DNA of 64,000 bases from Natranaeroarchaeum sulfidigenes (GTDB lineage Archaea; Halobacteriota; Halobacteria; Halobacteriales; Natronoarchaeaceae): NCBI RefSeq assembly GCF_017094485.1, contig NZ_CP064786.1, positions 1-64,000 on the forward strand, given 5' to 3'. The notes under the pieces were generated by a model, which saw only the letters and a list, made by a program, of their open reading frames with translations, did not search any database and was not told the origin of the DNA. The position numbers and the translations under genes are program-made. Of this stretch, positions 14,720 to 34,129 are shown piece after piece. Positions within the stretch are counted from its first letter, which is position 1; the number at the start of each line of letters is the position of its first letter.

Positions 14720-14792
14720 AGTCCATTGGGGTAGCGGCCAATCCTGAAGCCTTCTGGGGGCTTCGACCCTGGTTCGAATCCAGGATGGACTA
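14720..14792 (+). tRNA. tRNA-Gln (CUG)
   Basis: Cloverleaf reads directly: acceptor stem AGTCCAT (14720-14726) with ATGGACT (14785-14791), anticodon stem AAGCC/GGCTT, loop TTCTGGG with anticodon CTG at 14754-14756, T stem CCTGG/CCAGG with loop TTCGAAT, discriminator A. No CCA is encoded. Its 3' end is repeated 109 bp downstream. Confidence 0.95.
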
Positions 14793-14902
14793 TTCTTGTC
14801 GCGAACGTACCTGTGAGCGACAGAATCGTCATTGAGTGGATTCGAACTCCGGCAGACGAGTGGTAGCGAGTCTGCAGTCAGTTCGAATCCAGGATGGACT
14901 AT
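14772..14902. repeat. Duplicated 3' end of tRNA-Gln (att-like) with hairpin spacer
   Basis: The last 20 or so bases of the tRNA (14772-14793) recur exactly at 14881-14902, a 22-bp direct repeat 109 bp apart. This is the signature of integration into a tRNA 3' end. The spacer contains a hairpin, GCAGAC and GTCTGC (within 14852-14876), directly before the second copy, and no gene. The same arrangement follows tRNA-Gly in this window. Confidence 0.75.
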
Positions 14903-33513: not shown

Positions 33514-33837
33514 GCCGCTATGCCCTCGCGTCACTTTTCTTATAAAAGGGCTGATATTTTGATTCCTAGTCCCGGGGCTCAACTACTCGTTGCGGCGATT
33601 CAACTCCTCACATTCGATCGATCGTCGGTCAGAACTGCCGGGTACTCACTCACTTCGTTCGTGACATTGACGCAGGAATGCGTCGAGAGACACTCTGTTC
33701 GTCTCTCGAACATGGCTTCGCGGTGCTCAGCCATGCGCCGGCCGGGAATTGAACCCGACTGCGAGACTCACTCCGTTCGTCTCGCGTGATTCAATTCCCG
33801 GAGCGATTTCACTGCTCACTGACGTTCGCAGCAGAAA
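33514..33837. repeat. Hairpin cluster downstream of tRNA-Gly
   Basis: No gene. On the minus strand, at least four stem-loops share a GAACG-(N)-AGTG-type loop: near 33754-33786 (GCGAGAC/GTCTCGC), 33685-33710 (CGAGAGAC/GTCTCTCG), 33643-33665 (TCAC/GTGA) and 33808-33832 (CTGC/GCAG). The duplicated tRNA-Gly 3' end lies among them. Confidence 0.6.
33733..33757 (-). repeat. Duplicated 3' end of tRNA-Gly (att-like)
   Basis: This 25-bp string repeats exactly at 33837-33861, which is the 3' end of tRNA-Gly including the discriminator. The copies are 104 bp apart. The spacer between them aligns with the spacer after tRNA-Gln (14793-14880). Confidence 0.75.
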
Positions 33838-33908
33838 TGCGCCGGCCGGGAATTGAACCCGGGCTATGAGCTTGGGAAGCTCATGTCCTACCACTAGACC
33901 ACCGGCGC
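33838..33908 (-). tRNA. tRNA-Gly (CCC)
   Basis: Minus strand: acceptor GCGCCGG with CCGGCGC, anticodon stem TGAGC/GCTCA, loop TTCCCAA giving anticodon CCC, T arm CGGGTTCAATTCCCG, discriminator A. No CCA encoded. Confidence 0.95.
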
Positions 33909-34129
33909 ATTCGGGTTGCTGCATCCCGATTTATGCGGTGGCGATTCTTAAACACTGCTGATTCAGCTCCCGTCATCGTCTCCGACAATACAGCTTGACA
34001 AATATTGAACTGTGCGTATGTTTATTGATAGCTCCACAATAATATAATGGTCTTAAACGCTTTTTGCTGAACATACGTCTATTTCGACAAAGTTAACTGA
34101 CAACGATTCTCAAAGCAGTTGTTCACTGT
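33909..34129. other. AT-rich spacer between tRNA-Gly and pntA1
   Basis: About 220 bp, much richer in A and T than its flanks, holding the divergent promoters of tRNA-Gly and the transhydrogenase operon. No small gene seen. Confidence 0.4.

Follow-up and report, generated by a model that had tools for sequence, protein, structure and literature searches.

In the haloarchaeal genome studied here, the gene for tRNA-Gly(CCC) is followed by a second copy of its own 3' end, which raises the question of what such a duplicated tRNA tail is and how it comes about. The window that we analyzed comprises bases 1-64000 of this single-contig 3.04-Mb genome. The tRNA-Gly(CCC) gene, the parent gene of the repeat, lies on the reverse strand at 33837..33909 (ARAGORN; Rfam RF00005, 70.7 bits). 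Its tail (33837-33861) recurs as an identical 25-bp copy, ATGCGCCGGCCGGGAATTGAACCCG, which extends from the T-loop to just past the discriminator at 33733-33757; direct reading confirms this copy and the offset of 104 bp given in the initial annotation. A comparable arrangement is found at tRNA-Gln(CTG) on the forward strand (14720..14792; ARAGORN), the last 21 nt of which (14772-14792) are repeated at 14881-14901, 109 bp further on. The elements listed earlier as common to the two spacers are indeed present in both. Two features had been overlooked, namely an antisense T-half within the Gly spacer and an exact empty site in the congener G140.

Both loci thus carry a complete unit bounded by tRNA tails, 104 nt long at tRNA-Gly (33733..33836, reverse strand) and 109 nt long at tRNA-Gln (14793..14901, forward strand). 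The Gly unit, delimited by the exact repeat and by the absence of the segment from G140, begins at the tRNA 3' end with hairpin I (33808..33836; TTCTGCTGC-GAAC..GTGA-GCAGTGAA), which is predicted by folding and has a covarying stem. It is followed by the antisense T-half CCGGGAATTGAA (33790..33801), recognized from the fold and from its specificity for its own tail, and complementary to the T-half of both the tail copy and tRNA-Gly. Hairpin II in the fold (33758..33789; GCGAGAC-GAACGGAGTGA-GTCTCGC) and the tail copy (33733..33757) complete the unit, all parts lying on the reverse strand. Pairing between the antisense T-half and the tail copy turns the second half of the unit into one long hairpin. 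On the forward strand, folding of the Gln unit gave the same succession of hairpin I (14793..14825), an antisense T-half, TGGATTCGAACT, at 14837..14848 that pairs with 14880-14891, and hairpin II (14849..14879), with the tail copy at 14881..14901. The third tRNA gene of the window, tRNA-Thr(GGT) (41048 being its last base and 40977 its first, forward strand; ARAGORN), has a hairpin-I-like trailer without a tail copy.

We then asked how widespread such copies are and scored the flanks of the 44 tRNAs detected by Rfam in the window genome for the best ungapped match to the respective tail within 300 nt, with a cutoff score of >=15; this tRNA list omits tRNA-Trp as well as tRNA-Gln(CTG), which has a unit. 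A copy of the own tail was present downstream of 23 of the 43 scored tRNAs and upstream of none (0/43) at this cutoff. The tails of other tRNAs reached the cutoff in 6 of 600 trials, and shuffled flanks yielded no own-tail copy (0/150). Several tRNAs have two or three tandem copies, for example tRNA-His at +116, +221 and +366. Other haloarchaea gave similar results (21/42 tRNAs in G140, 18/43 in G007 and 13/31 in G027), while none of 58 tRNAs from two archaea of the same phylum but other classes had a tail copy. The exact pattern GGATTTGAAC-(28-58)-GTTCAAATCC occurred in 25 of about 42 haloarchaea, whereas about 200 non-haloarchaeal genomes of the phylum and the reversed control had no match; since the pattern covers one T-loop sequence only, its absence from other genomes is less firmly established than its presence in haloarchaea. 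Tandem tRNA-Gly(CCC) tails were found on 31 haloarchaeal contigs, including named Haloferax, Haloarcula, Halorientalis and Halobaculum. Moreover, 9 of 13 strong hairpin-I-like structures in 444 kb of the window genome lie at tRNAs or displaced units. Taken together with the upstream, foreign-tail, shuffled and non-haloarchaeal controls, this survey rules out chance or a frequent haloarchaeal motif as an explanation.

Tail-copy units are therefore real, class-wide in haloarchaea and spread across the genome. What had been suspected from the two window loci, elements of about 105 bp that form a family at tRNA 3' ends, extends to many tRNAs and genera, with tandem arrays and an exact filled/empty pair; comparison of the trailers of the scored tRNAs and of relatives brought up both further copied tails and loci with and without a unit. 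In open-licence papers we found no description of tail-copy arrays, which, judged from this literature, are apparently undescribed. In a small sample, tRNAs with a close next gene on the same strand had no units: Ser-gct and Leu-cag, each followed by an apparent ribosomal protein gene, and Asn, followed by tRNA-Met.

The units have a common anatomy. They measure about 65-200 bp, mostly 90-145 bp, and one to three of them follow about half of the tRNA genes. On the tRNA strand, the order is hairpin I, antisense T-half, hairpin II and tail copy, the latter reaching from the T-loop to the discriminator. Hairpin I abuts the tRNA end and typically has the form TTCTGC-GACGAACGGACGTGAGGA-GCGAA, whereas hairpin II belongs to one of a few recurring sequence types, such as CCAGTCGCGCGCAGCGAAGCGAGCACGTCTGG or GCGAGACGAACGGAGTGAGTCTCGC. 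The hairpin cores are common to different tRNAs and families. The tail copy (about the last 22 nt) begins at -22/-23, and its end coincides with the last base of the tRNA gene in 95 of 142 matches. The antisense segment is the reverse complement of the T-loop and 3' T-stem of the tRNA, and it fits the own tail in 68% of the units compared to 24% for foreign tails. No such signal was obtained when the acceptor part of the copy was tested for pairing to the linker (15.1% for own and 14.5% for foreign tails). The Tyr and Phe units instead have a longer tRNA copy, which hairpin II interrupts at the T-arm. Units of a second kind, composed of an antisense acceptor, a GCAAAC..GTTTGC hairpin and an acceptor copy (-14 to 0), are found at Ala-cgc, Asp, Gly-tcc and Arg-tct.

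Several lines of evidence indicate that the structure itself is conserved, as the initial annotation had considered when it proposed a mimic of the tRNA tail. As RNA, both window units fold far better than shuffled sequences (z of -4.86 for Gly and -4.81 for Gln), and folded as DNA they reach a z of -3.9. Across 75 hairpin I sequences, arm pairing at positions 1-8 was well above that of arm-shuffled controls, with 62 Watson-Crick pairs at position 4 compared to 28.9 +/- 3.7; several pair types occur at the stem positions, so the stem covaries. Strand preference is equally evident. Of 233 trailers, 111 have the GARC..GYGA core in the sense orientation of the tRNA within their first 45 nt and 14 have it in antisense, the count in a control stretch being 14/231. 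Conserved mismatches read on the tRNA strand comprise 173 G-A and 10 T-C, and RNA folding is more stable on this strand in 102 of 125 units, compared to 22 for the opposite strand. Covariation, fold scores and strand preference thus support the proposed mimic as a structure. G-U pairs do not exceed A-C mismatches in hairpin I (11 versus 27), hairpin II (11 versus 38, most of the 38 representing one conserved C-A) or the antisense T (13 versus 20). Such a shortage of G-U is usually atypical for a long-selected RNA helix, and for this reason the sequence alone is compatible with either RNA or single-stranded DNA.

The missing G-U preference would be expected if the units had little or no function and were by-products of replication, in which a self-complementary T-half provokes template switching and slippage and leaves triplets of tail, antisense tail and tail with quasipalindromes. 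The plus/minus/plus order of the tail segments agrees with such an origin, as do the decay of copies with distance described below, the second kind of unit with an antisense acceptor in place of the antisense T, and an analogous E. coli locus. We nevertheless consider it unlikely: the hairpin cores are strand-specific and conserved across tRNAs and families, and none of the 58 tRNAs of the two archaea from other classes has a tail copy.

Comparison of relatives revealed turnover of units. In G140, tRNA-Gly is directly followed by TGGCTGAGCATCGCGAAGCCATG, which in the window comes after the tail copy, and this represents an exact empty site. At tRNA-His, the window genome has the series U1-U2-U3, and G140 has U2 followed by a U1/U3 hybrid. 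At Ser-cga, the first and the last hairpin I differ between the two genomes by an exchange of their 5' halves, and the units at Ser-gga are reordered. Leu-taa has two units in the window genome against one in G140, and Cys none against one. The Gly arrays of four Haloferax species read x-y, z-y-x, z-y'-y and y. Among 60 multi-copy arrays, the copy nearest to the tRNA had 0.93 mismatches and the farthest 2.38, the nearest copy being the better one in 28 arrays and the farthest in 11. The T-stem of tRNA-Phe in G140 has changed to the tRNA-Tyr form while the tail copy keeps the older form, which shows that copies are not strictly kept in step with their tRNA; a conversion between tRNA genes is possible at this locus. 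As a separate observation, 400 nt of trailer and flank of tRNA-Leu(TAG) are identical in the window genome and G140, although other trailers clearly differ, and the sequence identity suggests a recent exchange between the two species. Units cannot be essential for their tRNAs, given that about half of the tRNAs have none and that the set lacking one differs between species.

Haloarchaea are documented to delete sequence between short direct repeats (PMC3119063), and loss of a unit via its 22-25 bp repeats can therefore proceed without a dedicated enzyme. It is harder to explain gain and reordering in this way, but duplication followed by deletion suffices. Alternatively, the units could be small mobile cassettes of about 105 bp that a site-specific recombinase, acting in trans, cuts out and inserts at tRNA tails, with the newest one next to the tRNA. 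The enzyme would be either a tyrosine recombinase acting on duplex sites or an integron-like one acting on folded single strands. The exact filled/empty site with the tail as target repeat is in line with this idea, and so are the reordered units at His, Ser-cga, Ser-gga and in the Haloferax Gly arrays, the freshest copy adjoining the tRNA, and the hairpin I exchange at Ser-cga, which fits one excision and one reinsertion. Polarity, exact excision and reordering fit an integron-like cassette array, but tandem duplication and deletion fit equally well and also account for the reordering. In its most elaborate form, the proposal comprises gene-free, class-wide cassettes folded on the tRNA strand, which would be excised and reinserted as single strands in an integron-like manner, newest first, and would double as tRNA-specific trailer RNAs; we regard this combination as very unlikely.

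A direct link between units and an integrase was suggested by the tRNA-Tyr locus of the window genome (C1:2229287-2234396), where an element of about 4.75 kb with an SNJ2-family integrase separates the tRNA from three tail copies. Its direct repeats include tail plus hairpin I, as if its attP had carried a whole unit, and G140 has the array without the element. This observation prompted the idea that units are the attP of SNJ2-type viruses, which was ruled out by inspection of seven viral attP regions (SNJ2, HHPV4, HRPV9, Halfgib1, Harhisp1, Humcor2 and LSV-48N): none contains hairpin I, the antisense T or hairpin II, and they share the acceptor core only (13-15 bp where annotated). SNJ2-type integrases are present in 113 of 116 haloarchaeal genomes, but in G027, where 13 of 31 tRNAs have copies, a search for this type gave no match; G027 has other tyrosine recombinases. 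Only 1 of 30 SNJ2-type integrase loci has a unit within about 1.5 kb, and at this locus, in G007, the unit is intact and located downstream of the element. Furthermore, the antisense T-half is adapted to each local tRNA, which is unexpected from simple movement between tRNAs. Mobilization in trans by a tyrosine recombinase, as put forward in the initial annotation, is on these grounds possible but unsupported, and we judge mobile cassettes in general to be improbable.

The exact T-hairpin pattern matched 11 viral contigs, none with a haloarchaeal unit and several of them perfect tRNA-tail palindromes of bacterial appearance; the hairpin II consensus had no match in viral contigs, and phage and plasmid DNA searched with the Gly unit contained no full-length match. 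Five IMG/VR contigs, probably of bacterial prophage origin, carry near-perfect tRNA-tail palindromes (CATGGATTTGAACC..GGTTCAAATCCATG).

Since tRNA tails are the usual att sites, the tail copies might also be old att sites left by viruses or plasmids, or decoys, that is, spare targets catching new arrivals. The integrations at tRNA-Tyr and at the intron-containing tRNA-Trp (C1:1211153-1236558) would suit this reading, the latter element of about 25 kb being located exactly between tRNA and unit, with its integrase-side end abutting the displaced unit. The same position speaks against it, as the elements at tRNA-Trp and in G007 each precede an intact unit and so did not make it. Considering that the viral attP sites have no unit either, we conclude that the units pre-exist the integrated elements. 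The spacers, in addition, contain shared hairpins and no viral sequence. Among the explanations weighed here, remnants or decoys appear the least likely.

We prefer, over recombinase-driven cassettes and replication by-products, a reading in which the units are structured trailers of tRNAs, similar to RtT, whose turnover results from recombination between the tail repeats, and we assign it a probability of about 0.45, which makes it a tentative choice. In this model, the pre-tRNA trailer would include the transcribed unit, which would fold compactly, with the T-copy paired to the antisense T and with hairpins I and II formed. This fold would keep the antisense T off the real T-arm. The folded unit might end the transcript, or a small RNA might be freed upon tRNA 3' cleavage, as reported for E. 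coli RtT. Units would be gained, lost and reordered when the 22-25 bp tail repeats, and also similar hairpins, recombine or cause replication slippage, whichever recombination enzyme might serve; turnover through the tail repeats would leave the copies nearest to the tRNA freshest and let distal ones decay. We count against this reading that the acceptor part of the copy lacks a pairing partner, along with the missing G-U preference, the many tRNAs that have no unit and the tRNA-Phe copy of G140 that fell out of step with its gene.

These results extend a structure known from a single E. coli operon to about 40-55% of the scored tRNA genes of four haloarchaea, with the same plan in many genera. 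Owing to this wide occurrence and to natural filled/empty pairs, the question why tRNA tails duplicate in tandem becomes testable in the tractable Haloferax and Haloarcula. They also affect the calling of tRNA-anchored elements, as a copied tail behind a haloarchaeal tRNA does not in itself constitute evidence of an integrated element.

The units share individual traits with several known systems. SNJ2-type att sites are likewise located at tRNA 3' ends, but their attP consists of the acceptor core without unit parts. REP/BIME palindromes and MITE/PATE-like repeats are also short, gene-free, hairpin-forming and variable in copy number; however, they are dispersed or bounded by transposon ends, whereas the haloarchaeal units sit at tRNAs and are bounded by tRNA tails. 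Integron arrays (attI/attC) are likewise tandem and repeat-bounded, with one hairpin per unit, the freshest unit at one end and a varying order; the haloarchaeal units differ in being gene-free and in having a tRNA tail as bounding repeat.

The closest resemblance is to the E. coli tyrT-tyrV-rttR locus (RtT). In E. coli K-12 MG1655 (1285800-1287800), 19-nt tail copies follow tyrV at a spacing of 178 bp, and the repeat units fold such that the anti-tail GGGGAAGGAT and ATCCTTCCCC of the copy form a stem enclosing inner GCGAAGC-type hairpins; strain SK1144 is devoid of these tyrTV/RtT tail-copy repeats. As in haloarchaea, the units are tandem, end with a copy of the own tail and follow an anti-tail/hairpin/tail plan. 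In contrast, RtT occupies one locus in the genome examined, has a longer unit of other sequence and includes CCA inside the copy. The Rfam family RF00391 (RtT) matched four E. coli units and none of the haloarchaeal loci L006, L009, L041 and L086, and a cutoff as loose as E<=5 gave no match in the surroundings of the Gly unit either; no known Rfam family could be assigned to the units. RtT RNA is described, in a passage of PMC4986893 citing Bosl and Kersten 1991, as being released during tRNA processing and affecting the stringent response. By their sequence and predicted fold, the haloarchaeal units are thus built like RtT without being members of RF00391, and by analogy they may work like it. 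The occurrence of a common plan in two domains suggests convergence.
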